A stretch of 13,661 nt of DNA from a bacterium (GTDB taxonomy: Bacteria; JAJVIF01; JAGGVT01). The notes under the pieces were generated by a model. That model was given only the letters and a program-made list of their open reading frames with translations. It did no database searches and was not told where the DNA came from. The translations under genes and the position numbers were made by a program. The stretch is taken from assembly GCA_021157815.1 (NCBI GenBank), contig JAGGVT010000112.1:1-13661 (forward strand), read 5' to 3'. Below are positions 1 to 13,661 of the stretch, piece by piece (the stretch's first letter is position 1; each line of letters starts with the position of its first letter).

Positions 1-213
1 TACATGGCGATTCGCCACTGGATTATCGATATCGCCACAGGGCATTACAAACTTGTAACAGGCCGTGAACAGTATTATGATATTCAGTCGATTGAATCCC
101 TACTAGATGCTTTCGGATTCGAAATCGAAAATATCCACGGCGGATGGGATGGCAGGGAGTACGCATCCGGTGGGGAATCAATGATAGTGAAGGTTAGCAG
201 GTTAGCAGGTTAG
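1..213 (+). CDS. C-terminal fragment of a probable class I SAM-dependent methyltransferase
   Basis: The reading frame is open from the first base of the window, so the gene begins upstream and only about 70 C-terminal residues are visible. The segment YDIQSIESLLDAFGFEIENI followed by HGGWDGREY and a closing strand ESMIVKV resembles the usual end of class I methyltransferases, where a 'LLxxAGF' helix leads to a last beta hairpin 'G(D/W)xDGxxYxxxSxxMIV'. The SAM-binding motifs would lie outside the window, so substrate and pathway cannot be stated. The stop codon TAG (211-213) lies inside a tandem octamer array, and the last residues (SRLAG) are encoded by the repeat itself, so the natural C-terminus has been replaced or capped by repeat sequence. 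Assignment to the fold is moderately sure; the function is unknown. Confidence 0.6.
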   Translation, partial: YMAIRHWIIDIATGHYKLVTGREQYYDIQSIESLLDAFGFEIENIHGGWDGREYASGGESMIVKVSRLAG

Positions 214-264
214 CAAGTTAGCAGGTTAGCAAGTTAGCAGGTTAGCAAGTTAGCAGGTTAGCAG
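193..264 (+). repeat. Octamer array A: nine tandem GTTAGCAG/GTTAGCAA units
   Basis: Nine uninterrupted 8-bp units, five or more GTTAGCAG interspersed with GTTAGCAA, followed by a partial unit GTTAAT. The array begins inside the 3' end of the upstream gene and supplies its stop codon. It is in the opposite orientation to array B 68 bp downstream, so the two can fold as an imperfect stem. Confidence 0.97.
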
Positions 265-295
265 GTTAATGCATTGTGTATTGTTCAACCTGTAA

Positions 296-315
296 CCCGG
301 TGTCCCTTCACCGGG
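296..315 (+). other. GC-rich hairpin between octamer arrays A and B
   Basis: CCCGGTG (296-302) and CACCGGG (309-315) form a perfect 7-bp stem with a 6-nt loop. It sits at the middle of the A/B inverted pair. No T-run follows (the next bases are GTCCCCTTC), so an intrinsic terminator is unlikely; a structural apex of the larger inverted pair is the simpler reading. Confidence 0.7.
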
Positions 316-331
316 GTCCCCTTCAGTATTT

Positions 332-383
332 AACTTACTAACTTACTAACTTACTAACTTACTAACTTATTAACTTATTAACC
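332..383 (-). repeat. Octamer array B: six tandem AACTTACT/AACTTATT units
   Basis: Four AACTTACT units, two AACTTATT units and a partial AACC. On the minus strand these read GTTAGTAA and GTTAATAA, i.e. transition variants of the GTTAGCAR unit of arrays A and C. The array ends 18 bp before the start codon of the PPC-domain gene, so that gene's promoter must lie within or upstream of the repeats. Confidence 0.95.
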
Positions 384-401
384 ATCTTTGGAGACACAAC
401 A

Positions 402-821
402 ATGAAAACACTCAAAGGCAACGATTCATTCGTAATCAAAATACCGGTCGGTGAGGAAATAATGGCATCCCTGAAAGAATTCATGCGTCAGGAGAAACTG
501 CCATCGGCATCATTTACCGGAATAGGCTCGATAGAGAAATGCGTAATCGGATATTTCGACCGAGACCAAAAGAAATATCTCACTAAAACCATTGATGCAG
601 TTTGTGAAATTACAACACTAATAGGCAATCTCGGCTGGGATGAAAACGATGAGCCTATGATTCACGCTCATATCACTCTCGGATTTCCCGATTATCATAT
701 AGAGGGCGGGCATCTGGTAGAGGGCGTTATCGGTGTGGTTGGGGAGATAGTGGTAATTCCGGGCACGGTGAGAATAGTACGAAAAAAAGATGACCAATTC
801 GGATTAATGCTGATGAGTTAG
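402..821 (+). CDS. PPC domain (DUF296) protein, single-domain prokaryotic type
   Basis: A 139-residue protein covering one PPC (plants and prokaryotes conserved) domain and nothing else. Visible family marks are the early VGEEIMASL helix (16-24), SFTGIGSIEKCVIGYFD (37-53), the strand EITTLIGN (69-76), P-MIHAH (85-90) and the GGHL turn (102-105), then a closing GEIVVIPGTVRIVRK strand pair. H88, H90 and H104 are placed where a metal site could form, which is an inference. In plants the domain is part of AT-hook nuclear proteins; free-standing bacterial copies are usually annotated as DNA-binding, but their role is poorly known. A GGAGA ribosome site (390-394) 7 nt before ATG supports the start. 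The stop TAG (819-821) lies in an octamer-like GTTAGTAA (817-824), as at the end of the preceding gene. Confidence 0.9.
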   Translation: MKTLKGNDSFVIKIPVGEEIMASLKEFMRQEKLPSASFTGIGSIEKCVIGYFDRDQKKYLTKTIDAVCEITTLIGNLGWDENDEPMIHAHITLGFPDYHIEGGHLVEGVIGVVGEIVVIPGTVRIVRKKDDQFGLMLMS

Positions 822-829
822 TAAGAAAA

Positions 830-941
830 GTTAGCAGGTTAGCAAGTTAGCAAGTTAGCAGGTTAGCAGGTTAGCAGGTTAGCAGGTTAGCAAGTTAGCA
901 GGTTAGCAGGTTAGCAAGTTAGCAGGTTAGCAGGTTAGCAG
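830..941 (+). repeat. Octamer array C: fourteen tandem GTTAGCAG/GTTAGCAA units
   Basis: Fourteen perfect-length 8-bp units; ten end in G and four in A. Just upstream, GTTAGTAA (817-824) plus a 5-bp GAAAA-type break looks like a degenerate extra unit. The array lies between the 3' ends of the convergent PPC and four-helix-bundle genes, and is in inverse orientation to array D on the other side of the four-helix-bundle gene. Confidence 0.97.
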
Positions 942-953
942 GTTTGTGAATTA

Positions 954-1328
954 TTATTGGTTTTCGTATTTGAGATACCTGTAAAGACCGCCAATTAGTT
1001 TGGCGGTTTTTTGTGCCTGGTTTAACAGTATTTCATGCTGATCATGAGAGATATATTCAAGATCAAGGGCTATATATAATTGGCTTTGGACCTCTTGTAA
1101 TGAACCATGAGCGATGTTAAGAAACCGAATAAATTCGTTATTACCACGCCTGCCAAACCCCTCTGAGATATTTGACATGACACTAACCGCAGCACGTTGA
1201 ATCTGATTACGAAGCCCATAATTATTCGCGAATGGTTTCTGAGCAGTTGATTTATAAATCTGCACACAAAGTTGTCTGGCATTCTGCCACGCTTGAATGT
1301 CCTCAAATTTCTCAAATCTCAAAATCAT
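954..1328 (-). CDS. Four-helix-bundle protein, 23S rRNA intervening-sequence (S23/IVP) family
   Basis: From the ATG at 1328 the protein has 124 residues, the usual length of the family. Diagnostic segments are FEDIQAWQNARQL (8-20), YGLRNQIQRAAVSVMSNISEGFGRR (37-61), EFIRFLNIAHGSLQEVQSQL (65-84) and a last helix to residue 121. Relatives are encoded within intervening sequences of bacterial 23S rRNA genes and also occur free in genomes; they share a fold with the Avd accessory protein of diversity-generating retroelements and are thought to bind nucleic acid. No rRNA sequence is seen here. The frame stays open to 1427, but the region upstream of 1328 does not look like the family. GGGAG lies only 2 nt from ATG; a TTG two codons later (1320-1322) would give 8-nt spacing, so the exact start is uncertain. 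The gene is flanked by inverted octamer arrays C and D. Confidence 0.92.
   Translation of the reverse strand: MILRFEKFEDIQAWQNARQLCVQIYKSTAQKPFANNYGLRNQIQRAAVSVMSNISEGFGRRGNNEFIRFLNIAHGSLQEVQSQLYIALDLEYISHDQHEILLNQAQKTAKLIGGLYRYLKYENQ
987..1012 (+). terminator. Intrinsic terminator on the plus strand, inside the antisense four-helix-bundle gene
   Basis: ACCGCCAA (987-994) and TTGGCGGT (1000-1007) form an 8-bp stem with a 5-nt loop, followed directly by TTTTTT (1007-1012). On the plus strand this is a good rho-independent terminator for transcripts coming from the PPC gene and array C. On the minus strand the same bases encode roughly residues 106-114 of the four-helix-bundle protein, and no U-tract follows there, so its own transcript should not be stopped. 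Confidence 0.7.
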
Positions 1329-1425
1329 CACTCCCGAACAGTCTGTCGCTATAATTACAATCAATAGACGGCGCCGATGTGTCAATCGCTGCACAATTAC
1401 AAAAATAATTAAGAAATATTCTCCC

Positions 1426-1593
1426 AACCTACCAACCTACCAACCTACCAACCTACAAACCTACCAACCTACCAACCTACCAACCTACCAACCTACCAAC
1501 CTACCAACCTGCTAACCTACTAACCTGCTAACCTGCTAACCTGCTAACCTACTAACCTGCTAACCTGCTAACCTGTTAACTTACTAACTTTTC
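1426..1593 (-). repeat. Octamer array D: about twenty units in two blocks
   Basis: Ten AACCTACC-type units (1426-1505; one is AACCTACA) are followed by ten units of AACCTGCT, AACCTACT, AACCTGTT and AACTTACT (1506-1585), then a decayed AACTTTT. On the minus strand the first block reads GTTGGTAG and the second GTTAGCAG/GTTAGTAG. The second block is exactly complementary to array C units. The array lies upstream of both the four-helix-bundle gene (-) and the epimerase/dehydratase gene (+). The 1297-1515 plus-strand reading frame is an artefact of the stop-free AACCTACC block. Confidence 0.96.
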
Positions 1594-1632
1594 CTTCAAC
1601 CTTTCCACGTTTAAACCGATTTAATATATGTT

Positions 1633-2697
1633 ATGCAAAAAGACTTGCGAGAACAATTCAATGGACGCCGTATTCTTGTAACCGGTGGGACAGGATCAAT
1701 CGGACGAGAGATTGTACGGCAGCTTCTTCAGTGGGACCCTGAGGTTATTCGAATTTTCAGCCGTAACGAAAATAACCAGTTCACTGAATATCAAAAACTG
1801 GGGCATCACAAGAATATCCGCTTTCTGATTGGCGATGTTCGCGACAAAGATCGATTGAAGCGCGCGTGTGAGGATATAGATTATATATTTCACACCGCGG
1901 CGCTCAAGCATGTGCCGTTCTGTGAGTACAATCCGTTCGAGGCTGTTAAAACCAATGTTGTAGGAACGCAGAATCTAATTGAGGTTGCGCTGGAATGTGG
2001 AGTTGGGAAAGTAATCGCGATAAACACTGACAAATCAGTGTCACCCATTAACACGATGGGCGCGACGAAACTTCTCGCGGAGAAATTAATCATCGCGGCG
2101 CAGGCATACAAGGGAACTCGAAAGACATCATTCTGCTCGGTTCGGTTTGGAAACGTTATAGGTTCCGATGGCAGCGTGTTGCAAACATTTATCGATCAGG
2201 CACAGATGGGCGGTCCGGTAACTGTAACCGACCCGGTGATGTGCCGATTTATAATGACTATTCCTGATGCCGTTGCCCTTGTGCTTGGAGCATCAACGCT
2301 GTCGAGGGGCGGCGAGGTCTTTATTCTCAAGATGCCGGCGCTGAAAATAGTTGATCTTGCTGAGGTTATTATTGATGAAATTGCGCCAACGGATAACGTA
2401 AGGATTACTTTCTCAGGATCGCGTCCGGGTGAAAAACTTCACGAGGAATTGATGACGCGGGAGGAAAGCCCATACGCAATCGAACGCGAGGGAATGTATA
2501 TTATTCGTCCGCTTATGGCTGGAAAGAAATCGGTTGGTTCGACGCGAAAAGTATATTCAACTGAGTCAACTCCATTGATGAGCAAGCCTGAAATAAGGCG
2601 TTATCTTAAAGATAGAAAATTGCTGCCGGGATTCAAACCTGAACTGGCGCCCCCGCCATCCAAATCTAAAAAACCACGAGTAACCCTGTATACATGA
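1633..2697 (+). CDS. CapD/FlaA1-like polysaccharide biosynthesis protein (soluble NDP-sugar epimerase/4,6-dehydratase)
   Basis: An extended short-chain dehydrogenase of 354 residues. The nucleotide-binding loop is GGTGSIG (18-24), followed by GDVRD (67-71), HTAALKHVP (87-95), NTDKSVSP (131-138), the catalytic segment MGATK (142-146), RFGNVIGSDGSV (171-182) and the family signature RPGEKLHEEL (264-273). Methionine replaces the usual tyrosine of YxxxK, as in WbpM/CapD-type 4,6-dehydratases, whereas PseB/FlaA1-type enzymes have tyrosine. The membrane domain of WbpM-type proteins is absent, so this is a cytosolic enzyme, probably modifying UDP-GlcNAc or a related sugar for surface glycan. The substrate cannot be read from sequence. 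The start is the first ATG in frame and matches family N-termini, but no Shine-Dalgarno is visible in the 30 bases before it. No sugar-pathway genes are adjacent. The C-terminal tail (337-354) is Pro/Lys rich and nonconserved. Confidence 0.9.
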   Translation: MQKDLREQFNGRRILVTGGTGSIGREIVRQLLQWDPEVIRIFSRNENNQFTEYQKLGHHKNIRFLIGDVRDKDRLKRACEDIDYIFHTAALKHVPFCEYNPFEAVKTNVVGTQNLIEVALECGVGKVIAINTDKSVSPINTMGATKLLAEKLIIAAQAYKGTRKTSFCSVRFGNVIGSDGSVLQTFIDQAQMGGPVTVTDPVMCRFIMTIPDAVALVLGASTLSRGGEVFILKMPALKIVDLAEVIIDEIAPTDNVRITFSGSRPGEKLHEELMTREESPYAIEREGMYIIRPLMAGKKSVGSTRKVYSTESTPLMSKPEIRRYLKDRKLLPGFKPELAPPPSKSKKPRVTLYT

Positions 2698-2800
2698 TGG
2701 AATCACGGATGCGCACATATAAAATATTTACATCCTGATATTGGTTGAAATCTGATTTGGAGAAAAAGAATTCTTTGTAATACTTTTAATCTGGAAATGG

Positions 2801-2829
2801 TTGACTTTCGAGTGGGTATGACGTATATT
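2801..2829 (+). promoter_or_regulatory. Sigma70-type promoter of the pentahaem cytochrome gene
   Basis: TTGACT (2801-2806) and TATATT (2824-2829) are separated by exactly 17 bp. Transcription would begin near 2836, giving a leader of about 110 nt. Confidence 0.8.
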
Positions 2830-2877
2830 TTCTCAATTGTTGTGGGGGATAAGTTAGTTTTTTCTGAATTCTGTATT

Positions 2878-2945
2878 CGCTGGTGAAACCCAGCGTACGG
2901 TTCATAAATTTTACGTTATAACTTTAGCTGAGAGGTACCTCCCGG
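2878..2945 (+). promoter_or_regulatory. Leader of the cytochrome mRNA: hairpin and palindromic ribosome site
   Basis: CGCTGG (2878-2883) pairs with CCAGCG (2890-2895) over a 6-nt loop. Close to the start codon, the ribosome site GAGAGG (2930-2935) runs into the palindrome GAGGTACCTC (2932-2941), ending 4 nt before ATG. CTGAGAGG here resembles one box of TPP riboswitches, but the other conserved boxes are missing. No known riboswitch is recognised. Confidence 0.45.
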
Positions 2946-4448
2946 ATGAGGACTAGAACCGTAAGGACATTTATCGTATTCATCTATTTATTCCTTATTT
3001 TTGTGGCACTTGCAGGAATAAGTACGCTATTGGCTCGACCAGCGACAAGGATCGATCCAACAATGTTAGATAAAGATCTTCGGCAAGTATTAGAACCCGA
3101 GCATCTTCTTCTGGTGATTTCAAACGAATCACCGTTCAAACCCACATCGTGGTGCAGGCAGTGCCATCGCACACATGATGATGAGTGGACAAATTCAATG
3201 CACTATCAGTCATGGCGAGATCCAATCTTCCAGAAGTACTATAAAGGATATCTTGCATACCTTGAGAATCCTGAGGTCATTACTGAGGACACCTATGAAG
3301 TTGTCATGGGCAGGGAAGTTGAGAAATCCTGGACCAAAAGCGAACGTAAGGGTCGCTTGAGTTACAAGGAACAGGAAGAGATTAACAAGAAAGAAATTCT
3401 CCGCCATGGCGACACGCGAACATATAAAGAGTATATGCTTCGTGAGGATCCTAATGCCGGAAATGAATTTGTTCATTTGACCGGTGAGGAGCTTGGAGTT
3501 GTGATTCATGGTCAGGGGCTTTTGCCTGATGGCCTTATCGATGGCAAGGTTCAAATCAACTGCCTGAGATGCCATGCTCCCGGTGCTGATATTACACTGG
3601 ATAGGGATATGCTTCTGGAGAACAATGCCGATGGTGTTTTCTGCGATTACTGCCATAATATAATTGACCGCTATGATGATGTTCATTATATCTTGAGCAT
3701 TAATTCGCAGATTAAACAAGGCCCATACGTTACAACAGTATCGAGTTCTCATTGTATTGAACCATCAAAACTGATAACGCAAAGCCAGTACTGCAAGGAT
3801 TGTCATCAGTACACCAACCCGCTTGGCGTTCCGATTTACAATGTTTATGCGGAATGGTTCGACAGTGATTACAATGCAGGTTCGAATATCACGAACTGCC
3901 AGGATTGCCACATGCCAACTTATACAGGCAGGTCGGCGAGAAATTCGGATGTTCGCCCGAATGTTTTCGACCACACTTTCTACGGCGGCAATGATGACAC
4001 ATTCCTGAAAGAATGCGCGACTGTTGATATCGACAGCACAATCGATGCTGAAGAGATTAACATTGAAGTTACTGTCAAGAATGCGCGAGCTGGGCATAAC
4101 CTGCCTGCGAGTTCAGGTCTGAGAGAGCTTGTACTGATTGTCAGGCTAAAAGGTCCTGAGGGCGAAACAATCTGGCATGGCAAGAGGGTTTACACTCGTG
4201 TGTATGGTGACCTCGAAGGGAATCCGACTCTTGATCATTGGCACGCGGCGCAGATTCTCAGTGATACAACTCTGAAAGCCGGAGCTGAGCAGATTGAGGA
4301 ATTCACGGTTCCGCGGCCTGATGTCGAGGGCAGTGTTTATGTAACGGCACAGCTCTTCTACAGGCGTACACCTGAAGATCAACCGAATATCGTTGAGTAC
4401 ATTCCTCGACCAACCCGAGTTGATAACGCGGTGCATTTCATCCAGTAA
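2946..4448 (+). CDS. Membrane-anchored pentahaem c-type cytochrome
   Basis: A 500-residue exported protein. Residues 8-30 form one hydrophobic segment after a basic N-terminus (MRTRTVR), acting as an uncleaved anchor or signal. Five CxxCH haem sites are present: CRQCH (70-74), CLRCH (206-210), CDYCH (233-237), CKDCH (283-287) and CQDCH (318-322). Residue stretches around WTNSMHYQS (81-89) and histidines such as H188 may provide axial ligands (inference). The last 140 residues lack haem sites and form a beta-rich domain with the motif GHNLPAS (383-389), which recurs at the end of many periplasmic multihaem cytochromes. It should carry electrons on the outer face of the cytoplasmic membrane. 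The partner and acceptor are unknown, as no redox genes adjoin. It is monocistronic, with a strong promoter 117 bp upstream of the ATG and a terminator 30 bp after the stop. Confidence 0.92.
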   Translation: MRTRTVRTFIVFIYLFLIFVALAGISTLLARPATRIDPTMLDKDLRQVLEPEHLLLVISNESPFKPTSWCRQCHRTHDDEWTNSMHYQSWRDPIFQKYYKGYLAYLENPEVITEDTYEVVMGREVEKSWTKSERKGRLSYKEQEEINKKEILRHGDTRTYKEYMLREDPNAGNEFVHLTGEELGVVIHGQGLLPDGLIDGKVQINCLRCHAPGADITLDRDMLLENNADGVFCDYCHNIIDRYDDVHYILSINSQIKQGPYVTTVSSSHCIEPSKLITQSQYCKDCHQYTNPLGVPIYNVYAEWFDSDYNAGSNITNCQDCHMPTYTGRSARNSDVRPNVFDHTFYGGNDDTFLKECATVDIDSTIDAEEINIEVTVKNARAGHNLPASSGLRELVLIVRLKGPEGETIWHGKRVYTRVYGDLEGNPTLDHWHAAQILSDTTLKAGAEQIEEFTVPRPDVEGSVYVTAQLFYRRTPEDQPNIVEYIPRPTRVDNAVHFIQ

Positions 4449-4474
4449 TCGACTTGTGAAGGATACGAAAAACC

Positions 4475-4500
4475 AAACCCCGCAATCGCGGGGTTTTTTT
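4475..4500 (+). terminator. Intrinsic terminator of the cytochrome gene
   Basis: CCCCGC (4478-4483) and GCGGGG (4488-4493) with a 4-nt loop AATC, flanked by AAA before and seven T after (4494-4500). The A/T flanks extend the stem to 9 bp. Confidence 0.95.
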
Positions 4501-4549
4501 ATTAGTGGAATCGGAATGTAGGCAGTCTTGTCTTCAGTTAAACAGGATT

Positions 4550-4603
4550 CATTGCCATTCTGAGATTCATTGTCATTCTGAGATGCATTGTCATTCTGAG
4601 CGA
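4550..4603 (+). repeat. Three tandem 18-bp copies ending in a REP arm
   Basis: CATTGCCATTCTGAGATT (4550-4567), CATTGTCATTCTGAGATG (4568-4585) and CATTGTCATTCTGAGCGA (4586-4603) are near-identical in tandem. The third runs on into the full inverted REP arm. It looks like slippage duplication of the outer end of that REP. Confidence 0.9.
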
Positions 4604-4698
4604 AGCGAAGAATCTATATGCCACTGTGTTAGTGATTATATCTATTGAGAAATATTTACGTTATCGCGAATAGATTCTTCACTTCGTTCAGAATGACA
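4589..4698. repeat. Inverted pair of REP-like elements (GTCATTCTGAGCGAAGCGAAG type)
   Basis: A 29-bp left arm (4589-4617, starting TGTCATTCTGAGCGAAG) is matched by an inverted right arm (4670-4698, ending TTCAGAATGACA), 27 of 29 positions complementary. The 52-bp centre is not repeated. Repeats of this type are scattered in intergenic spaces of many bacteria. Confidence 0.9.
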
Positions 4699-4762
4699 GA
4701 ATATATGCGGTTCCGGGACACAGCAAGGAAAGTGTCTCTGAACCTACAAACAGCAGGAAAAA

Positions 4763-4789
4763 CGTCATTCCCGCGAAAGCGGGAATCCA
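4763..4789. repeat. REP-like palindrome, intact copy (ATTCCCGC-GAAA-GCGGGAAT)
   Basis: ATTCCCGC (4767-4774), loop GAAA, GCGGGAAT (4779-4786), with flanking CGTC and CCA. It is the intact mate of the split copy that starts at 4835, in inverted orientation. Confidence 0.92.
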
Positions 4790-4834
4790 ATTTTGCTTTA
4801 ATCAGATTATCGTACGGATTGAATCAGAAGAAAA

Positions 4835-4996
4835 TGGATTCCCGCTTTCGCGCTTGTTGAAAAAGCCCATTATATCCCAGACCGTAGGGGCAACTCTCCG
4901 TGGTTGCCCTGTATTTATGCCAATATTTAGGGTAGGCACAGAGACCTACCCCCTACATTCAGGGCTTTTTCAACAGCCCGTTTCGCGGGAATGACG
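4835..4996. repeat. Second REP-like palindrome, split by an insertion
   Basis: TGGATTCCCGCTTTCGCG (4835-4852) is the first two thirds, and TTTCGCGGGAATGACG (4981-4996) the last part, of the reverse complement of the 4763-4789 repeat. The TTTCGCG overlap appears on both sides of the inserted segment 4853-4980. Confidence 0.88.
4853..4980. mobile_element. MITE-like insertion with 14-bp terminal inverted repeats and target duplication
   Basis: TGTTGAAAAAGCCC (4855-4868) and GGGCTTTTTCAACA (4962-4975) are perfect terminal inverted repeats about 121 bp apart end to end. The host REP bases TTTCGCG are present on both sides (4846-4852, 4981-4987), a 7-bp direct repeat that extends imperfectly to CCCG(C)TTTCGCG. 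The interior has no ORF but two hairpins: GGGCAAC/GTTGCCC (4888-4909) and GGGTAGG/CCTACCC (4930-4951). It is non-autonomous; the mobilising transposase family was not identified. Confidence 0.75.
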
Positions 4997-5034
4997 TGAT
5001 ATTCGACCTGGTTAGGGTAATCGAATGTAAGAAA

Positions 5035-5100
5035 GGGATTCCGACCATTCTCCTCGATTCGCTTGTCGGATGCAGGAATGACATACGATATCAGAATGAC
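5035..5100. repeat. Degenerate REP-like remnants
   Basis: GGGATTCCGAC (5035-5045) and GTCGG-ATGCA-GGAATGACA (5065-5083) form a loose palindrome sharing the ATTCC/GGAAT ends of the neighbouring REPs. TCAGAATGAC (5091-5100) is a half-site of the 4589-4698 type. Beyond these, 5101-5252 holds only a weak hairpin (GGAATCT/AGATTCC, 5117-5137); no gene or convincing terminator for mfd is seen. Confidence 0.5.
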
Positions 5101-5252
5101 GTTTTTCTCGCTGTTTGGAATCTCTGAGACAGATTCCTTGCTGTACGCTGAAGTTACCATGTATAATGCGGCACACCGGGGTGCAGCAAGCAATGCCCAT
5201 ACATACAGCCATAACTACTCCGGTGCTCCAATCACGATAGCAGTTTCATATA

Positions 5253-8200
5253 TTATTTATTCGCAAATGTGAGATATTTCTTCGCCAGGATTCCGTCAAC
5301 GAGCTCAGTTACTCCATTTAAAATACTATCCCAGTCGCCTGTAGCTCTGAACCAAAATCCCTTTTGCGTCTTATTGAGAGTCTTTCCCGATACGATGCAT
5401 TTCCCATTGTGCCACGGAAGAGGTGGCTCTCCCGCTTTAAAGATGATGTTGAATTTATGTTCATCCCGGTTGTAATGCGCCGCGCTGACGTAAATTTCAC
5501 GAAGGTGGATTTTTAATTTGACTGTTTCCAGAAGGCGTTTGGTTACTTCAGGCAGCTTTCCGAATCTATCCCTTAGTTCAGATTCAAGATTCGCAAGTTC
5601 CTCTTCGTTTTGAATTCTCCCGAGCCGCCTGTAGATATCAAGCCGTTCAGCAATCGCGGGGATGTATTTATCAGGCAAATGAGCGCTGAACGGGATATCG
5701 ATTGCGGGACCGGAAAAGGTCACATCCTTTATTTCATCATATCCTTCCTCTTTTTTAATTTCGAGGATTGTCTCATCAACCAGGTGGCAGTACATTTCAA
5801 GACCGACCTGTCCCACAAAACCATGCTGCTCGGGACCAAGTATGTTTCCCGCGCCTCTCAGTTCCAAATCCCGGCGCGCGATTTCATAACCCGCGCCAAG
5901 GTGGCTGAAAGTCGTGAGAGCCTCAAGGCGTTGACGGCCTATCGATGTCAGCTTACCCTCGGTTGGATAAAGAAAATAAGAGTATGCCTGTGCTGATGAC
6001 CGTCCAACCCGTCCACGCAGCTGATGAAGCTGCGCGAGTCCGAAATTCTGGGCGTTCTCAACAATTAGCGTGTTTACATTCGGAATATCAAGGCCATTTT
6101 CAATTATTGTTGTGCACAGCAGAATGTCATATTCGCCGGAGAGAAATTCGAGCATCGATTTCTCAAGTTTGCGTTTGTCCATTTGACCATGCCCAACAGT
6201 GATTCTGGCATCAGGAATAAGTTTCGTAAGGCGTTCGTAAACAGCCATTATCGTCTCAACCCTGTTGTAGAGATAATATATCTGGCCTTCGCGTTTGATT
6301 TCACGATTAATTGCATCCACGACCAGTTTTTCATTATAACGCCTTATGAACGTCTTGACAGGCAGCCTTCCCGGCGGGGGAGTGTCTATGAAAGATATGT
6401 CTCGCAAACCAACCAGCGACATGTAAAGCGTGCGTGGAATCGGTGTGGCGGTAAGCGTGAGAACATCAACATTCGTTTTGATAAACTTGATTCTTTCCTT
6501 GTGGCGAACTCCGAATTTCTGCTCCTCATCCACAATTAACAAACCGAGTTTAGCGAACACAATATCTTTGCTGAGGATTCGATGTGTTCCTATTATTATA
6601 TCAACTTTGCCTTTTGCCAGCTGTTCGATTATTACTTTCTGCTCCGCGCGGTTTTTGAATCGCGACAACATCTCGACTTTCACGGGCAGTTTGGCGAGTC
6701 TTCTTGAGAAAGTAAGGAAATGCTGCTGCGCGAGAACAGTTGTGGGACAAAGCAACGCGACCTGCCTGCCGTCCAGAACCGATTTCAAAGCGGCGCGAAC
6801 CGCCAGTTCGGTTTTACCGTAGCCAACCTCGCCGCATATAAGGCGATCCATCGGCTTGCCTGATTCCATGTCCTGTTTTACTTCCTTAATGCTTCGTTCC
6901 TGGCCGTCTGTTTCGATAAACTCGAAATCATCCTCTATTTCCCCTTGCCACGGTTGGTCAGGACTGAAAGCGTATCCTTCCAGCTTTGCCCGTTTGTGGT
7001 AGAGAAGAAGAAGTTCCTCCGCGATTTTTCGCAGCGCCTTTTTGATTTTCTGTTTGGTTCGCAGCCAGTCTGTTGTTCCGAGTTTGTGTATGGTCGGAGC
7101 GTTTCCCTCACCAGCGGAGTATTTGAAAATTTGGTCGAGTTGGTCTGTAGGTATAAATAATTTATCGCCATAGGCGTATTCCAGAAGGATATAATCGCGC
7201 GTAACACCGCTGACCGTGCTTCGTTCAATTCCCTTGAATATCCCAACGCCGTAATCCACATGGACGATATATTCACCCGAGTGAATCATCCTGAGTTCTT
7301 TTTGCGTGATTGATTTTCTTTTATGCCGTGTCAGCGGATGGATTTTGTTCGGGAAAAGTTCCTCATCGCCGATTATTCCGATTCCGGCGTCCGGCAGAAG
7401 AAATCCGCCAAAGAGTTCTCCGTAAATTATACTGACAGCATCGAGATCTTCTGAATAGTCCTGTTCAATCCGTTTCGCGCTTCTGGTTACAAGATAACCG
7501 CCCGGTTTGGGAAGTTGTTTCACAAGGTGTTTTATTCGATTTGGCAGTGAACCGAAGTCAAGCGAAATATCTATCGCGCGAATTGAAATGACACCCTTTT
7601 TCGGAGTTTCATCAGATGGCAGGAGAAAAGTCATACTATTATGTTCGCTGATTTTGTCGCGGATATTATTAACCTCAAGAAATGGCAGGTTGATTTGCGG
7701 TTGAACACTGCCTTCGTCAAATTTAACGCCATCCAGGTCGGTTTCAACCCAACTTTCAGGAATGGCTTCAGGTTCCTCATCAACAAGCGATGCGAGAACA
7801 TCAGCGCCGTCAAGAACAAGCAACCCATTTTCAGGGATGTAGTCAAGAAGCGAGTTCTTGTCGCGCTGCGCGAAATAGGAGTTGGTTAATTCATCCCATG
7901 CACCGGGAGATTCACCTCCGATATCCTCGAGTTTTTCCGGGCTAATTCCAGCTTCCTCTATTCGCTCACGATCATAAGATCTTGCCTCGAAACATGGTGA
8001 TATTCTCACAGATTGAATTGTTTCACTTGAGCGCTGGCTTGTTGGGTCGAATATACGGATGGATTCGAGTTCATCCCCAAAGAAATCGAGGCGAATCGGT
8101 GTTTCGTGCCCTACGGCAAACACATCGAGGATTCCGCCTCTTAATGCTACTTCGCCAGCGTAACGAACTGTTCTGACAACCTGATAACCGATTTCTCTTA

Positions 8201-8717
8201 ATCGCCGCAGTAAATCGTCAATATCCCATCGGGAGCCGATTTTAACGTTAACAAGCGCGGTTTTGAATCGTTTTGGGGATACGGTTGGGATTCGCAGCGC
8301 CTGGGATGTTGTTACAATTCTTGAATTTTCCTCATACAGCATTTTTTCCAGAACCTGGTAGCGATCGATAATCTGCTCGGAATCCTTGAGAGATTGAAAA
8401 TCGCGGCTGGTCGAATCATCCTCATGGAAATGATATATCCCGAGCTGTTCATCATCGCTCTTTCTATGCCATAACGCGTGAAATTCAAGATTACGCATCA
8501 TTGAAATAGCGTCATCTCTGGTTCGAGCGACATATACGACAGGCATATTCAATTCGACTGAAAGGGCGTGAATGTAGAGCGCTCCCAGAGAGCCGCAGAT
8601 ACCATCAATGTGAAAAGAGCGTTTACCCTTTTTTACACGCTTATGAACCTGTTTGAAATCATCAGATTCAATGAATGTCCGATATAATTCAGCCCAATTT
8701 TCCTTCCAGGAGCTCAT
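5253..8717 (-). CDS. mfd: Transcription-repair coupling factor Mfd
   Basis: At 1154 residues it matches full-length Mfd. The protein moves RNA polymerase stalled at DNA lesions and recruits UvrA for strand-specific excision repair. In order: a UvrB-homology N-terminal part (RYAGEVALRGGILDVF near 210), the RNA polymerase-interacting domain (HVDYGVGIFKGIERS... DYILLEYAYGDKLFIP), the linker with GYAFSPDQPWQ, and the RecG-like motor. Motor motifs are Walker A GEVGYGKTE (629-637), DEEQ (730-733), TATPIPRT (756-763) and QLRGRVGR (899-906), then the C-terminal TRCF domain. Walker A reads GEVGYGKTE where GDVG(F/Y)GKTE is usual, a conservative change. The start ATG overlaps the pth stop by one base (TAATG), implying translational coupling as the last gene of the operon. 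No strong Shine-Dalgarno is needed or seen. Confidence 0.99.
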   Translation of the reverse strand: MSSWKENWAELYRTFIESDDFKQVHKRVKKGKRSFHIDGICGSLGALYIHALSVELNMPVVYVARTRDDAISMMRNLEFHALWHRKSDDEQLGIYHFHEDDSTSRDFQSLKDSEQIIDRYQVLEKMLYEENSRIVTTSQALRIPTVSPKRFKTALVNVKIGSRWDIDDLLRRLREIGYQVVRTVRYAGEVALRGGILDVFAVGHETPIRLDFFGDELESIRIFDPTSQRSSETIQSVRISPCFEARSYDRERIEEAGISPEKLEDIGGESPGAWDELTNSYFAQRDKNSLLDYIPENGLLVLDGADVLASLVDEEPEAIPESWVETDLDGVKFDEGSVQPQINLPFLEVNNIRDKISEHNSMTFLLPSDETPKKGVISIRAIDISLDFGSLPNRIKHLVKQLPKPGGYLVTRSAKRIEQDYSEDLDAVSIIYGELFGGFLLPDAGIGIIGDEELFPNKIHPLTRHKRKSITQKELRMIHSGEYIVHVDYGVGIFKGIERSTVSGVTRDYILLEYAYGDKLFIPTDQLDQIFKYSAGEGNAPTIHKLGTTDWLRTKQKIKKALRKIAEELLLLYHKRAKLEGYAFSPDQPWQGEIEDDFEFIETDGQERSIKEVKQDMESGKPMDRLICGEVGYGKTELAVRAALKSVLDGRQVALLCPTTVLAQQHFLTFSRRLAKLPVKVEMLSRFKNRAEQKVIIEQLAKGKVDIIIGTHRILSKDIVFAKLGLLIVDEEQKFGVRHKERIKFIKTNVDVLTLTATPIPRTLYMSLVGLRDISFIDTPPPGRLPVKTFIRRYNEKLVVDAINREIKREGQIYYLYNRVETIMAVYERLTKLIPDARITVGHGQMDKRKLEKSMLEFLSGEYDILLCTTIIENGLDIPNVNTLIVENAQNFGLAQLHQLRGRVGRSSAQAYSYFLYPTEGKLTSIGRQRLEALTTFSHLGAGYEIARRDLELRGAGNILGPEQHGFVGQVGLEMYCHLVDETILEIKKEEGYDEIKDVTFSGPAIDIPFSAHLPDKYIPAIAERLDIYRRLGRIQNEEELANLESELRDRFGKLPEVTKRLLETVKLKIHLREIYVSAAHYNRDEHKFNIIFKAGEPPLPWHNGKCIVSGKTLNKTQKGFWFRATGDWDSILNGVTELVDGILAKKYLTFANK

Positions 8718-9352
8718 TATTCCGTTTCGTCTTTTTCATCCTCTTGAAATGGGTAATCGGCAATATCCCTGCGATTAAATGTATTCATTGCGGAGTCGAA
8801 TCCGTTGTCGAGTATTTCCATCATCGATTTAACAGCAATACCCACCGCATTTTCGACTCTTTGGGCGTCCAGTCCTGAAAATGGTGTAAGGACATAATCA
8901 GCGCCATCCGCATCTCCTTTGCCTCCTATTCCAATCCTGATGCGCCTTATTTCCTCACTGCGAAATGAATCCATTATTGACTGCATGCCCTTATGTCCCG
9001 CGGAACCGCCTGAATTTGCGAGCCGAATCCGCCCCGGTGGAAGGTCCATATCATCATAAATCACGATAACATCATCCGCTGGATATTTGCGTGACAGCCA
9101 TTTGACAGACTGTCCACTGAGATTCATATACGTTTGAGGTTTTACCAGGGCTATTTCGTGTGAATTAAGCTTATCCTGCAATACAAGCGAGCCAAGCTGC
9201 TTTGTGAACTTCTTGCGATTGAAATGCTCAGACGCGAAAGCATCCAGAACGCGGAATCCGACATTATGCTTTGTGCGTTCATATTCCATTCCCGGATTGC
9301 CCAGTCCGGCGAAGATTAAGTCAATTTGCTTTTTCCTGATAAAAAAGACCAT
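8717..9352 (-). CDS. pth: Peptidyl-tRNA hydrolase
   Basis: Cytosolic enzyme that releases peptides from peptidyl-tRNAs dropped by ribosomes, recycling tRNA. Family motifs: GLGNPG (16-21), catalytic H29 in TKHNVGF, KPQTYMN (71-77), the catalytic aspartate D100 in YDDMDLPPG, GSAGHKG (116-122) and RIRIGIG (137-143). The 211-residue length is slightly above average because of a basic start (MVFFIRKKQ) and an acidic tail (PFQEDEKDETE). K121 is at the position of E. coli N114, a common variation. Start is the first ATG, with a weak GAGA site 7 nt upstream. A 162-bp gap separates it from rplY, and its stop overlaps the mfd start by one base. The rplY-pth pairing is a conserved bacterial arrangement. 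Confidence 0.98.
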   Translation of the reverse strand: MVFFIRKKQIDLIFAGLGNPGMEYERTKHNVGFRVLDAFASEHFNRKKFTKQLGSLVLQDKLNSHEIALVKPQTYMNLSGQSVKWLSRKYPADDVIVIYDDMDLPPGRIRLANSGGSAGHKGMQSIMDSFRSEEIRRIRIGIGGKGDADGADYVLTPFSGLDAQRVENAVGIAVKSMMEILDNGFDSAMNTFNRRDIADYPFQEDEKDETE

Positions 9353-9400
9353 TAGTTTCTCAGATTAATTCCGGTATTACTTCTGATTGAAATGCCCAAC

Positions 9401-9424
9401 GCCCCGGCGGGTAAATCCGGGGGG
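9401..9424. other. GC-rich hairpin in the rplY-pth spacer
   Basis: CCCCGG (9402-9407) pairs with CCGGGG (9417-9422) across a 9-nt loop. There is no T-run on the minus strand after it, so it is not a standard terminator; it could slow or process the operon mRNA between rplY and pth. Confidence 0.6.
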
Positions 9425-9465
9425 TGTGCATCGTTAATATGGTTTTCGGAAGGATAATGAATCCT

Positions 9466-9507
9466 CCTGGGATTTAAACCCTGGGATGTAAATCCTGGGG
9501 TTCAAAA
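9466..9507. repeat. Three tandem 14-bp units in the rplY-pth spacer
   Basis: CCTGGGATTTAAAC (9466-9479), CCTGGGATGTAAAT (9480-9493) and CCTGGGGTTCAAAA (9494-9507) are diverged tandem copies. They sit directly after the rplY stop codon on the operon transcript. Confidence 0.8.
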
Positions 9508-9514
9508 TACCTGC

Positions 9515-10249
9515 CTACTTCTTTTTCTTCTTTCCGTCATCTTCATGTTTCTTCTTCTTATCATCATCTTCATGTTTTTTATCCTTCTCAGCGCTCTCAT
9601 CGCCCTCAGCACCCTCAGCAGGCTCAGCGCCTTCTTCGCCCTCAACGCCTTCCTCGAGTTCTTCGGCGACAGGCTCTTCAATAACTTTCGGAACTTCGAT
9701 TGAAAAGATAAGCAGTCCGGGGTCTGTTACAATTTTAACATCCTCGTTATCCCACGGGATTTCACCGACATGCAAACCTTCTGTAAGTTCGAATGGTGTG
9801 ATGTCAATCTCAATAACATCCGGTACATTTCTCGGGAAAGACTCCACATCCAGATAATCATGGTGTTTCATAAGGATACCACCGGCTTTTTCGCCTTCAG
9901 CTTTTCCGATGAACCTGATCGGGACTTCAAACAAGGCTGTAACGCCGCGAGCGAGCCGAATAAGGTCAACATGAAGGAGATTGCCTCTGGCTGGATGGCG
10001 TTGCACCTCGCCGACTTTGACCAGATCCGGTTCTTCTGTGTTGTCGTCCAGAACAAGGTCTAGAATCATGTTCCTTGAGCCGGAAACGTTGAACAACTTC
10101 TGCCAGATTTTCTCATTAAGGGCAAGAGGAATAGTTTCTCCTTCACCGCCGTAAAGAACGGATGGGATAAAGCCTTTTGCGCGCCAGGCTTTCTTTTCCG
10201 GTTTTGAGATATCCGGTCGTGTTTGCGCATTCATTTTGTGTAGTTCCAT
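9515..10249 (-). CDS. rplY: 50S ribosomal protein L25, long Ctc/TL5 form
   Basis: Binds 5S rRNA in the large ribosomal subunit. Residues 1-96 are the L25 domain, with IPSVLYGG (28-35) and the signature EVQRHPARGNLLHVDLIRL (81-99). Residues 100-188 are the second beta domain typical of the CTC/TL5 form, with DVESFPRNVPDVIEIDI (134-150). The tail from about 190 is low complexity: Glu/Ala/Gly rich, then two KKHEDD-type blocks ending in five lysines. It is longer than usual and probably disordered. A ribosome site AGGA lies 7 nt before the ATG (10257-10260 on the plus strand). It follows glmU by about 30 bp in the same operon; in Firmicutes prs often lies between the two, but here it does not. 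Confidence 0.97.
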   Translation of the reverse strand: MELHKMNAQTRPDISKPEKKAWRAKGFIPSVLYGGEGETIPLALNEKIWQKLFNVSGSRNMILDLVLDDNTEEPDLVKVGEVQRHPARGNLLHVDLIRLARGVTALFEVPIRFIGKAEGEKAGGILMKHHDYLDVESFPRNVPDVIEIDITPFELTEGLHVGEIPWDNEDVKIVTDPGLLIFSIEVPKVIEEPVAEELEEGVEGEEGAEPAEGAEGDESAEKDKKHEDDDKKKKHEDDGKKKKK

Positions 10250-10279
10250 TTTTCTGTCCTGAATCCTCTAATTCCTGAG

Positions 10280-11689
10280 TTATTTTTCGGATTTGGGTTT
10301 CTTTACTGCTTTACGGACAACTCTCGCCGGTACGCCCATTGCTGTTTGTCCGGGAGGGACGTCACGAGTAATCACACTTCCAGCGCCAGTCAGTGTATTG
10401 GCGCCTATTTTTATCGGCGCTACCAATATACTGTCCGAACCGATGAAAGCGTTATCGCCGATAAATGTCTTGTGTTTGTATGTGCCGTCATAATTGCATG
10501 TGATAGTGCCGGCTCCGATATTCACTTTCTTCCCCAAAGTGGCATCGCCGATGTAACTCAAATGATTTACTTTCGAATTTTCCCCGATAACCGACTTCTT
10601 AACCTCACAGAAATTTCCGACCCTTGAGCCTTTCTTTAGATGAGCGTCCGGTCTTAGATGGCTGAATGGGCCTACAACGCATCCGGCATCAATACGGGCT
10701 TCCTCAAGTGATGATATCCTTACCTTTACATTAGCAGCAATTTTTGAATCGGTAATGGTTGTCATCGGCCCAATCTCGGAATCCTTTCCGATGGTGGTTT
10801 TTCCCATGATATAAGTATCAGGATAAATTGTAACATCACGCGCGATTTTGACGCCATGTTCAATGTATGTTCGCCGCGGGTCGATAATCGAAACGCCTTT
10901 GTTCATCAATTCATTCAGTATTCGATGCTGAATAACTGATGATGCGTCCGCGATATCGGCGAGATTATTCGGCATGACCAGAAATGAATCATCCTCTGCG
11001 GTGTAAACCTCAACGTCGAGTTTATCCTTTACCATGAGTCCGGGAATGTCCGTCAGATACAATTCCTTCTGTTTGTTTTTCGAATTTATCCTGTCGAGAT
11101 ATCCAAACAGCGTTTTCTTTTCAAAACCGTACAGCCCGACATTCACCCACTCGATATGCTTCTCATCCCGCTTTAAATCGGATGACTCACGAATCGCTTC
11201 AAAATTGTCCGATTCATCGAAAATGATCCTGCCCAATCCTCCTGGATTCGGTGTCCAGTCGCATGATACAACCGTGTTGCAGTTGCGCTTTCCAAGCAGT
11301 GCCACGACGCTTTTAACAGCTTTTGGAGTGAGCAAGGGAGAATCGCCATTTATTACAAGTATGTGAGAGACATCTTTGGGGATTGAATCGCGCGCGATTA
11401 AAACCGCGTGTCCTGTTCCCGACTGTGGTTTCTGAAGTACGAATTTCTCATCCGGGAATGTTTTTTGAACCATCTCCGCGCGATATCCAACCACAACAAG
11501 CCTGCGAGTGATTCCCGCTTTCTCAATGGCATCGAGAACATACCATCCCATAGGTTTGCCCATTACGGAATGCAGCACCTTGGGAGTGTCGCTTTTCATG
11601 CGAGTCCCCTTGCCGGCCATTAAAACCAGCGCGAGAATTTTCTTTTTATTTATCGATTTGCTTTTCGCCAATTTCCTTTTCCTTACCAC
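10280..11689 (-). CDS. glmU: Bifunctional GlmU: GlcNAc-1-P uridyltransferase / GlcN-1-P acetyltransferase
   Basis: Makes UDP-GlcNAc for peptidoglycan and surface glycans. The uridyltransferase domain shows MAGKGTRM (24-31), TPKVLH (35-40), SGTGHAV (90-96), D116 in NGDSPLL and the metal residue N241. The left-handed beta-helix acetyltransferase domain shows RPDAHLKKG (346-354), catalytic H376 in [19 protein letters not shown] (392-402) and MGVPARVV (451-458). M24 replaces the first alanine of the canonical LAAGxGTRM. The longest frame starts with GTG at 11689, overlapping the pdxS stop by 7 nt but without a good ribosome site. TTG at 11671 has AAGGA 8 nt upstream and may be the true start, removing six basic residues. 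The tight overlap indicates coupling to pdxS. Both ends carry Lys-rich extensions. At 469 residues it is close to normal length. Confidence 0.98.
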
Positions 11690-12567
11690 CCGCGATTCTG
11701 CATCATCTGTTCTTCCGGTATTTCCCTGATATCCAATCCGACCATCGCTTTTGCCAGTCCTGTTGACAATTCCGCGAGTTTTTCCGGCTTATCGAAGAAT
11801 GTAGTTGCCTGGACAATCGCGTCCGCTCGCGCTGCCGGGTCCTCGCTTTTGAAGATTCCGCTTCCGACAAAAACGGTCTCAGCTCCAAGTTGGCGCATCA
11901 ACGCTGCATCTGCGGGAGTCGCGACTCCACCCGCCGCGAAATTGGGAACCGGAAGTTTGCCGTGCTTGTGGACATAAACGACCAAATCATACGGTGCCCC
12001 CAGTTCTTTCGCTTCGTGCATCAATTCGCCCTCATCGCACATTTTAAGGCGACGCATCTGTTCGGTGATCATTCGCATGTGGCGAACCGCCTCGACAATA
12101 TTTCCCGATCCCGCCTCGCCTTTCGTGCGAATCAAAGCCGCGCCCTCGCCGATTCTCCTCAGAGCCTCGCCGAGATTAACCGCTCCGCAAACAAAAGGCA
12201 CTTTGAAATCGTGTTTGTCGATATGATTCTTCTCATCGGCTGGCGTGAGCACCTCGCTTTCATCGATGAAATCAACGCCTATCGCCTCGAGAATCTGCGC
12301 TTCCACAAAATGCCCGATTCGCGCTTTCGCCATTACGGGAATGCTGACCGTTTTTTGGATATCCTTGATAATCTTGATATCCGCCATTCTGGCAACGCCG
12401 CCGTCACGGCGTATGTCGGATGGAACCCGTTCAAGCGCCATTACAGCACACGCGCCGGCTTTCTCGGCAATCGCAGCCTGCTCGACGTTCGTGACATCCA
12501 TAATCACCCCGCCTTTAAGCATCTCGGCAAGTCCCACTTTTAACTTATAAGAACCGGTTATACGCAT
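11683..12567 (-). CDS. pdxS: Pyridoxal 5'-phosphate synthase subunit PdxS
   Basis: Builds pyridoxal 5'-phosphate from ribose 5-phosphate, glyceraldehyde 3-phosphate and ammonia supplied by the glutaminase PdxT. With the start at 12567 the protein is 294 residues, as expected. Visible marks are D24 in [10 protein letters not shown]81 (Schiff-base lysine) in [17 protein letters not shown]149 in [10 protein letters not shown], and [12 protein letters not shown] followed by [13 protein letters not shown]. The frame is open to 12666, but the extra 33 residues are nonhomologous, and the mapped promoter lies inside them, so they cannot be translated from that transcript. GGTGG lies 5 nt before the chosen ATG. 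No pdxT is present in the window, so the glutaminase must be encoded elsewhere. It is the first gene of the operon and overlaps glmU by 7 nt. Confidence 0.97.
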
Positions 12568-12599
12568 CGTAACCACCAATCCCAAAAATGATAGATATA

Positions 12600-12620
12600 C
12601 CCGCCAATAAAAACGGCGGG
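12600..12620 (-). promoter_or_regulatory. Hairpin at the 5' end of the pdxS operon leader
   Basis: On the minus strand CCCGCC (12620-12615) pairs with GGCGGG (12605-12600) around a 9-nt loop. It begins a few bases after the predicted transcription start (about 12627) and lies 32 bp before the pdxS ATG. No U-run follows, so a role in RNA stability is more likely than attenuation. Confidence 0.55.
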
Positions 12621-12633
12621 ATACAAACAGGAA

Positions 12634-12662
12634 ATTATAATGCCACAGCGTCGATTTTGCAA
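12634..12662 (-). promoter_or_regulatory. Sigma70-type promoter of the pdxS-glmU-rplY-pth-mfd operon
   Basis: On the minus strand TTGCAA (12662-12657), a 17-bp spacer and a perfect TATAAT (12639-12634). Transcription should begin near 12627, giving a leader of about 60 nt. Confidence 0.85.
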
Positions 12663-12675
12663 ACAAAAAAAAGCG

Positions 12676-12715
12676 GTTAGAAGGTTAGCAGGTTAGCAGG
12701 TTAACAAGTTAGCAG
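12676..12715 (+). repeat. Octamer array E: five units near the operon promoter
   Basis: GTTAGAAG, GTTAGCAG, GTTAGCAG, GTTAACAA, GTTAGCAG, then a broken GTTGAG. It is the same family as arrays A-D but more than 11 kb away, starting 13 bp upstream of the pdxS operon -35 box. The following stretch to 12874 contains no gene. Confidence 0.92.
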
Positions 12716-12824
12716 GTTGAGTATAGAAGAAATCATTTGACCCTGGAGGCGCTGGTCTCTGAACGGCACCTGAACAGGCTTACTAAAAATCAGAGGGATA
12801 ACAAAACTGACATTACTTTATCAT

Positions 12825-12867
12825 TATAATTTTTTTCTACATTTTAACTCGTCGAATCTGATATAAT
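12825..12867 (+). promoter_or_regulatory. Possible promoter(s) of the toxin-antitoxin pair
   Basis: Two TATAAT boxes occur at 12825-12830 and 12862-12867 in an AT-rich stretch. Neither has a good -35 at normal spacing. The second would place the transcript start at or next to the ATG (12875), meaning a leaderless mRNA; the first would give a leader of about 38 nt. No Shine-Dalgarno is visible before the antitoxin start. Confidence 0.4.
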
Positions 12868-12874
12868 AATTGAT

Positions 12875-13114
12875 ATGAGAACTAAACCGAAAAGCAAACG
12901 ACGAAAGGCTGAGATCGTACTTCGTGATGGGAAGCCATCTGCTGTAATACTTGATATTGATGAGTATCAGAGCATTCTAGAGCGTCTTGAGGATATTGAG
13001 GATATTGAGATGCTTAAATCCATGCGTGAAAAGTCTTTGAAATTCCGCAGTTTAGAGGATTTTTTAGAGGAGCACGAATCTGATGTACAAGGTTCTAATC
13101 GAACGCGCCGCTGA
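12875..13114 (+). CDS. Phd/YefM-like antitoxin of a type II toxin-antitoxin system
   Basis: A 79-residue protein with a basic, Lys/Arg-rich N-terminus (MRTKPKSKRRKAEIVL). The family core is DGKPSAVILDIDEYQSILER (18-37), followed by an acidic helix LEDIEDIEMLKSM and LKFRSLEDFLEEHESD, the part expected to wrap the toxin. The order antitoxin-toxin and the 32-nt overlap with the RelE-like gene support the assignment. In such systems the N-terminal domain binds the operon's own promoter, and the C-terminal part neutralises the toxin. The first part of the Phd fold is shorter and more basic than in textbook Phd/YefM, as in several antitoxins paired with this toxin type. Confidence 0.82.
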   Translation: MRTKPKSKRRKAEIVLRDGKPSAVILDIDEYQSILERLEDIEDIEMLKSMREKSLKFRSLEDFLEEHESDVQGSNRTRR

Positions 13115-13337
13115 ACGGGAACTCAAACGGCTTGAGAGGACTGCTTTCGATAGGATAATCCCCGCCATAAAGAAACTCAAAGCAAACCCCAGACCTCGTG
13201 GTTGTAATAAAATAACTGGCTCAAAAAGTGATTGGAGAATTCGGGTTGGTGAATACAGGGTGATCTACGAGATAGATGAGAAAGCATCAGAAGTCAAAAT
13301 TATGCGTGTGAGCCATCGCAAAGATGCTTATAAATAG
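13083..13337 (+). CDS. RelE/ParE-superfamily toxin
   Basis: An 84-residue basic protein starting MYKVLIERAAERELKRLER, then a two-helix region, a PRPRG turn (37-40) and the characteristic WRIRVGEYRVIYEID core (51-65), ending with VKIMRVSHRKDAYK. H78, R79 and K80 at the end match the 'xHRKxxY' terminus of RelE-type mRNA interferases, so ribosome-dependent mRNA cleavage is more likely than ParE gyrase poisoning (inference). AGAGGAG (13066-13072) 10 nt before ATG supports the start inside the antitoxin gene. The pair is intact, with no frameshift or loss of the C-terminal residues. Confidence 0.9.
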   Translation: MYKVLIERAAERELKRLERTAFDRIIPAIKKLKANPRPRGCNKITGSKSDWRIRVGEYRVIYEIDEKASEVKIMRVSHRKDAYK

Positions 13338-13378
13338 AGAACCTGTTTGGCGCCCTGCATTTGAAATCAAAACAGCGG

Positions 13379-13475
13379 GTGCCGCCCACACATCACGTCT
13401 TTTTGTGATTTGTGGGTGAAATGCGTAACTTCGCAGCAAACACCCATAAAGCCGGGACGGCTGTATGGGCGGCAC
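13379..13475. repeat. Composite palindromic element downstream of the toxin gene
   Basis: Outer 10-bp inverted repeats GTGCCGCCCA (13379-13388) and TGGGCGGCAC (13466-13475) enclose two hairpins. One pairs 13385-13396 with 13405-13416 (11 of 12 bp, T-rich 8-nt loop). The other pairs CCCATA-A-AGCC (13443-13453) with GGCT-G-TATGGG (13459-13469). There is no ORF. It is likely a REP/MITE-type intergenic repeat; it could also end toxin transcripts, but lacks a trailing T-run. No gene is seen in 13338-13574. Confidence 0.65.
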
Positions 13476-13492
13476 TTGGCTATTTCTTACAA

Positions 13493-13521
13493 TTGAAAAC
13501 AAGACTTAACTCTGTTATAAT
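13493..13521 (+). promoter_or_regulatory. Sigma70-type promoter of the lipoprotein gene
   Basis: TTGAAA (13493-13498), a 17-bp spacer and a perfect TATAAT (13516-13521). The start would be near 13528, about 47 nt before the ATG. Confidence 0.82.
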
Positions 13522-13574
13522 CCCCAATACAATTAATAGTTATATTTAACCATGATTCACTGACGGAGGTCGTC

Positions 13575-13661
13575 ATGAAGAAGCGAATATCGATGCAGTT
13601 AATGTGTTTGATTCTACTCTTCGCGGTAATGGGATGCTCATCCAGCGACAACAATCCCGTA
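13575..13661 (+). CDS. N-terminal fragment of a lipoprotein
   Basis: The first 29 codons of a gene that runs off the window. A perfect GGAGG (13565-13569) lies 5 nt before ATG. Residues 1-20 are a lipoprotein signal peptide: basic MKKR, hydrophobic core LMCLILLFAV, lipobox VMGC with the lipidated cysteine at 21, then a Ser/Asp/Asn-rich linker (SSSDNNP). The protein will be membrane-anchored outside the cytoplasm. Too little is visible for any further assignment. Confidence 0.85.
   Translation, partial: MKKRISMQLMCLILLFAVMGCSSSDNNPV

Follow-up and report, generated by a model that had tools for sequence, protein, structure and literature searches.

Inverted arrays of short tandem repeats around S23-family four-helix-bundle genes: a probable foldback-type element of the intervening-sequence kind

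The S23 gene and its flanking arrays

We analyzed a 13,661-nucleotide stretch of a bacterial genome (contig JAGGVT010000112.1, positions 1 to 13,661), hereafter called the window. An S23/IVP four-helix-bundle gene lies on its minus strand at 954-1328 (ATG at 1326-1328), between two inverted arrays of octamers, and the whole is flanked by genes for a PCC-domain protein and a sugar dehydratase. The left arm, array C, is made of 14 GTTAGCAR units on the plus strand (repeats at 830-944, or 826-944 including the preceding AAAA; 14.4 copies of period 8 with 94% matches) and is separated from the S23 stop codon by a short spacer (945-953). On the other side, the upstream spacer of the gene forms a leader region within the element (1329-1423, minus strand) and is followed by the right arm, array D, which carries the unit type of array C on the minus strand (1424-1574, reaching about 1590; 18.9 copies). 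The inner half of array D (1424-1508) consists of GTTGGTAG units and its outer half (1509-1590) of GTTAGCAG/GTTAGTAG units, followed by a TTTT that mirrors the AAAA preceding array C. Counting these two short runs, the element extends from about 826 to about 1594.

The local inverted alignment of the two flanks of the gene scored 129, with 31 as the highest value among 40 shuffles, confirming the inverted octamer arrays that the first-pass annotation had reported around this gene. The complementarity to array C that it had noted in the distal part of array D was recovered as well, in the GTTAGCAG/GTTAGTAG units of the outer half. At the RNA level, the inner GTTGGTAG units would pair with the units of array C with two G.U pairs per unit, and the two arms are predicted to form an approximately 115-bp stem that encloses the S23 ORF (z = -19). 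The location outside rRNA also stood, since we obtained no rRNA match with Rfam in positions 1-2804 of the window (locus L009) and the neighbors are protein genes. Part of the leader (1363-1394, AATAGACGGCGCCGATGTG...) has six further occurrences elsewhere in the genome and may be a promoter or regulatory motif common to these places.

The S23 ORF matches PF05635 (6e-37) and TIGR02436 (9e-36). It was listed as 157 amino acids read from a TTG; the conserved start of the family is the ATG at 1326-1328, which gives a protein of 124 amino acids. In Foldseek comparisons, the structure model (pLDDT 95) resembled XCC0516 (2gsc, TM 0.86), also BT_0352 (2rld), and more distantly Avd (4dwl, TM 0.69-0.73); against the Avd family model the protein scored 22.2 bits and failed the cut-off of 80. 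Invariant residues of S23 include Q42, S49, N53, E56, G57, E79, D89, and Y92. We recognized neither a catalytic domain nor a known transposase in S23, whose fold is of the S23/Avd type, so that any catalytic step must come from something else or from an unrecognized activity. No reverse transcriptase was found among the selected window ORFs that were scanned, and no template repeat is annotated in the window. The dN/dS values of 0.06-0.12 among close intact S23 pairs, not seen in frame-shifted copies, indicate at the sequence level that the gene is under purifying selection.

Octamer arrays in the source genome

The pattern of three consecutive octamer units occurs 1583 times in the genome, the equivalent of about 114 arrays, against 0 occurrences of the reversed control. 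Our array catalogue is based on 355 kb of the genome together with these pattern counts. The 355 kb contain 41 octamer arrays, most of them without a partner, and among the array gaps below 500 bp, six were inward-facing, one outward and none in tandem. A search of the same genome for inverted partners of the solo arrays returned only the six known pairs. In the GTTAGCAR orientation, many of the arrays start close to the end of a gene and lead inward to repeat hairpins between genes. The hairpins CCCGGTGTCCCTTCACCGGGG, ACCACGCTAAAGCATGGTGTT, and GCCCGGGAATCCATTTCCCGGG are frequently located at the inner ends of the octamer arrays (many G000 loci), CCCGGTGTCCCTTCACCGGGG (297-317 in the window) being present in 14 copies in the 355 kb.

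This dispersed hairpin CCCGGTGTCCCTTCACCGGGG occupies the 62-bp core of a second inward-facing pair of the window, formed by array A (191-268, plus strand) and array B (331-382, minus strand). The pair has no S23 gene and is a possible non-autonomous element. A solo array of the same octamer family as C and D, array E, lies at 12675-12718 on the plus strand; just downstream of it (12875-13337), we observed a Phd/YefM- or RelB-like antitoxin gene and then an overlapping ParE-family toxin gene.

S23 is represented in this genome by one typical PF05635 gene and a marginal match in a 361-aa frame. With about 114 arrays for one typical S23 gene, a partnership between the protein and the repeat cannot be claimed from the source genome alone. 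Copies with a deleted S23 core were not found there, the search returning only short matches to the leader region. The window octamer was absent from 59 related genomes, because the units differ by locus. Taken by themselves, the numerous arrays beside unrelated genes would suit an independent, genome-wide repeat family comparable to the STRRs and the TAACTGA repeats, the S23 gene lying between two arrays by chance or through a common preference for intergenic islands.

S23 loci across genomes and traces of insertion

S23 loci were collected by the protein alone and relocated with our own S23 profile. The 250-bp flanks were scored by inverted local alignment with 40 dinucleotide shuffles per locus. 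Inverted flanks above all 40 shuffles were present at 69 of the 85 S23 loci and at none of the 29 PIN-domain controls from the common genome set (Mann-Whitney p 5e-14), the loci being partly related by descent so that these counts are not fully independent. Such flank scoring of stand-alone S23 genes had been proposed in the first-pass annotation, and it was strongly positive in other phyla. In a positional control on 6-kb loci, scores of at least 30 were reached in 17/23 S23-centered windows and in 2/690 shifted ones, and inverted flanks were also found at 15 of the 16 plasmid S23 loci. Significant periods were detected in the left arm at 77, in the right arm at 71 and in both arms at 66 of the 85 loci, with an equal period at 55; the units are mostly of 7, then 8, then 9 bp, in genomes that are mostly metagenome assemblies, where repeat lengths may be wrong. 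Units vary between loci, even inside one genome (G158), and the two arms of a locus usually agree to 0-2 changes. Of the 57 informative loci, 53 have a G-rich 5' arm (p 6e-12). Several S23 genes (e.g., L079, L080) have no arms, the 40 S23 loci tested with Rfam, that of the window included, contained no rRNA, and no S23 match was found in phage records. The placement of S23 between inverted arrays is a general architecture that recurs across many phyla.

These results argue strongly against an independent repeat family. It is compatible with the arrays lacking S23 in the gene islands of genome G075; it does not account for matching inverted arms at 69/85 loci chosen by protein against 0/29 controls and 2/690 shifted windows, for units that vary between loci and agree within most, or for insertions and empty sites that break at the arrays. 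We therefore consider it most improbable and, for the S23 family as a whole, largely refuted. On whether arrays are equally common beside unrelated genes, an outcome that the first-pass annotation had named as speaking against its proposal, the answer is divided: locally the objection holds by half, the octamer being common beside unrelated genes (about 114 arrays for one typical S23 gene), and across genomes the arrays are enriched at S23.

Two further relationships were examined and not retained. Co-evolution of protein and period (16 changes against 26 expected with all rows, p 0.048 after thinning) was weak beyond close kin. Concerted copying from arm to arm was not apparent at four orthologous Chloroflexi loci, where the match within a locus was no better than between loci.

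Presence or absence of the cassette at otherwise near-identical sites was observed in several cases. Trichormus and Scytonema plasmids carry an element of 428 and 414 bp, respectively, flanked on both sides by GTAAT, a clean 5-bp duplication, at a site that is intact and empty in N. linckia and N. carneum; several further plasmids have the same empty length as these two, with about 98% identity. One operon occurs on two Nostoc plasmids with a cassette in a different gap on each, so that either plasmid provides the empty site of the other; one insertion has a 3-bp duplication and the other is ambiguous. Overall, the target-site duplications comprise GTAAT (5 bp, clean, in one insertion only), ATG (3 bp), and two ambiguous sites. 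In the sister species G073 and G119 (loci L153/L157), one site is occupied by different cassettes that differ from the arms inward. The borders of the insertions and of their empty sites coincide with the arrays or arms. Unrelated flanks surround the copies of a 474-bp S23 unit that is dispersed in G075 and also found in G063 and G089. In G075, at least six MITE-like copies lack the central part of the gene and retain both ends; one such deletion derivative is common to G075 and G089 and missing from G101, G069, and G063. The empty sites sought following the first-pass annotation were thus found in related plasmids and genomes, but not for the window's own copy, which has no close relative for such a comparison and for which neither an empty site nor a target duplication could be demonstrated.

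The cassettes could alternatively be generally immobile, S23 being a conserved host or operon gene whose arms form a regulatory stem of its own mRNA and which is occasionally transferred as a passenger. Inheritance at a fixed place in Chloroflexi (L047/L048/L055/L059) and Zixibacteria (L057/L062), together with the strong purifying selection, fits this explanation, which we nevertheless regard as very unlikely given the presence/absence patterns with borders at the arms, the occupation of alternative gaps in one operon, and the dispersed copies and gene-less deleted derivatives.

Some of the insertion contexts are worth recording. The cyanobacterial plasmid cassettes (L266, L267, L271, L258) lie between cas6 and cas4 (twice), cmr2 and cmr3, and nrdB and nrdA. 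In Anabaena sp. 90 (L266, 1920-2010), the annotated beginning of cas4 overlaps the 3' arm of the cassette, which apparently codes for the first Cas4 residues, TCHLSPVT. In G075, genes of polysaccharide, ATPase and toxin-antitoxin type form an island at 2.10-2.22 Mb (L195-L200), and the spaces between them contain dozens of different 7- and 9-mer arrays, including several inverted pairs without S23.

Proposed element and comparison with known systems

We consider it probable that the S23 gene of the window and its inverted arrays are one copy of a small (about 0.4-0.8 kb) foldback-type mobile element of the IVS kind, on whose arrays S23 would act. The ends of such an element would be inverted arrays of a 7-9 bp tandem unit instead of ordinary terminal inverted repeats. 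Probably oligomeric in the manner of XCC0516 and Avd, the S23 protein may bind these array ends or their single-strand hairpin and bring them together for a nuclease or polymerase encoded outside the element, and insertion would leave a duplication of about 5 bp. The gene-less arrays (about 112 others in the source genome) would be non-autonomous or decayed relatives on which S23 acts in trans, and the units may turn over by slippage and by copying between arms. The variable occupation of near-identical sites and the dispersed and internally deleted copies speak for a mobile element; the single S23 gene for about 114 mostly unpaired arrays, without deleted S23-core copies in the source genome, speaks against it.

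A genuine rRNA intervening sequence with the same anatomy was found on a plasmid of Azospirillum lipoferum, locus L272 being situated within a 23S rRNA gene (LSU model 283-3336). Its arms are GGACGGATGACAGAGGACGGAGGACAGA and its complement, i.e., inverted arrays of heptamer type, so that a true IVS shares its anatomy with the stand-alone S23 cassettes and the earlier description of the window locus as IVS-like proved right in this respect. The elements could alternatively act at the RNA level, the stem of the transcript being cut by RNase III, which would make insertions silent, and spread occurring through RNA or cDNA with a reverse transcriptase from outside. The processing of rRNA IVSs by RNase III (PMC4990558) and the arms of L272 are consistent with this scenario, as are the stem predicted in the window, the elements inside operons (cas6-cas4, cmr2-cmr3, nrd) and the similarity of S23 to Avd, the reverse-transcriptase partner of DGRs. 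The arm differences of the window are G.U-compatible transitions in 19 cases against 0, all from one homogeneous unit run, but sense G.U-compatible and incompatible changes are equal at the other 59 loci (90 vs 90) and close at the plasmid loci (14 vs 16). Outside the window, G.U asymmetry thus lends no support to selection on a stem of the sense transcript, and a DNA-level role is at least as likely. The clean 5-bp duplication suggests a staggered DNA cut; target-primed reverse transcription can likewise leave duplications. Altogether, we regard spread at the RNA level as rather unlikely.

A broader generalization is conceivable and we advance it tentatively: S23 cassettes may represent an unrecognized class of bacterial transposons spanning phyla, whose sole protein is a non-enzyme-like four-helix bundle reading short tandem arrays. 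rRNA IVSs would be members caught in rRNA, Avd a domesticated relative, and 7-9-mer arrays (STRR, TAACTGA, the window octamer) their footprints. To our knowledge, S23/IVP proteins have no assigned function and rRNA IVSs no known means of spread, and many bacterial genomes are full of unexplained 7-9-mer arrays; one architecture would join all three. It would also suggest a possible source for the Avd fold of diversity-generating retroelements, and it offers concrete elements for testing, such as that of 428 bp on plasmid C of the laboratory strain Trichormus (Anabaena) variabilis ATCC 29413.

Among known systems, REP/RAYT (REP-associated tyrosine transposase) likewise combines a protein gene flanked by inverted repeats with many gene-less repeat copies per genome, as in the genome of the window. 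However, S23 is unrelated to the HUH nuclease of RAYT, and its repeats are tandem 7-9-mers instead of hairpins. The rRNA IVSs of Coxiella, Leptospira and others, which have been called selfish (PMC4990558), share with the S23 cassettes a size of about 0.4-0.5 kb and complementary arms that close a loop with an ORF of the S23 family. They differ in that the copy of the window, like most others, is located between protein genes, only L272 being in rRNA, that the literature consulted describes their arms as a plain stem and not as short tandem arrays, and that the window genome contains gene-less relatives of the arrays genome-wide. Avd of DGRs has its fold in common with S23 (4dwl, TM about 0.72), a homology noted before (PMC10053308), but S23 remains below the family cut-off (22 vs 80 bits); the link to Avd drawn in the first-pass annotation thus stands for the fold and not for family membership.

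The TAACTGA direct repeats of Beggiatoaceae and the cyanobacterial STRRs are, like the window octamer, short tandem arrays (7 bp) found in intergenic regions genome-wide, in diverse bacteria, and their mechanism of spread is not known (PMC4679880). They have not been linked to S23, that study mentioning neither S23 nor four-helix-bundle proteins. Our search of the open-access literature returned no account of repeat arrays flanking S23 genes, and this arrangement appears to be undescribed so far. Foldback transposons (FB, Galileo, Tm1) have terminal inverted repeats composed of short tandem subrepeats in varying number, MITE-like copies and short target duplications (PMC3169594). They are eukaryotic, with longer units, 9-bp duplications and a recognizable transposase in autonomous copies, whereas the S23 element has a four-helix-bundle protein only. 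Structurally, these transposons, with which S23 elements share inverted terminal arrays of short tandem units, are their nearest analogue.
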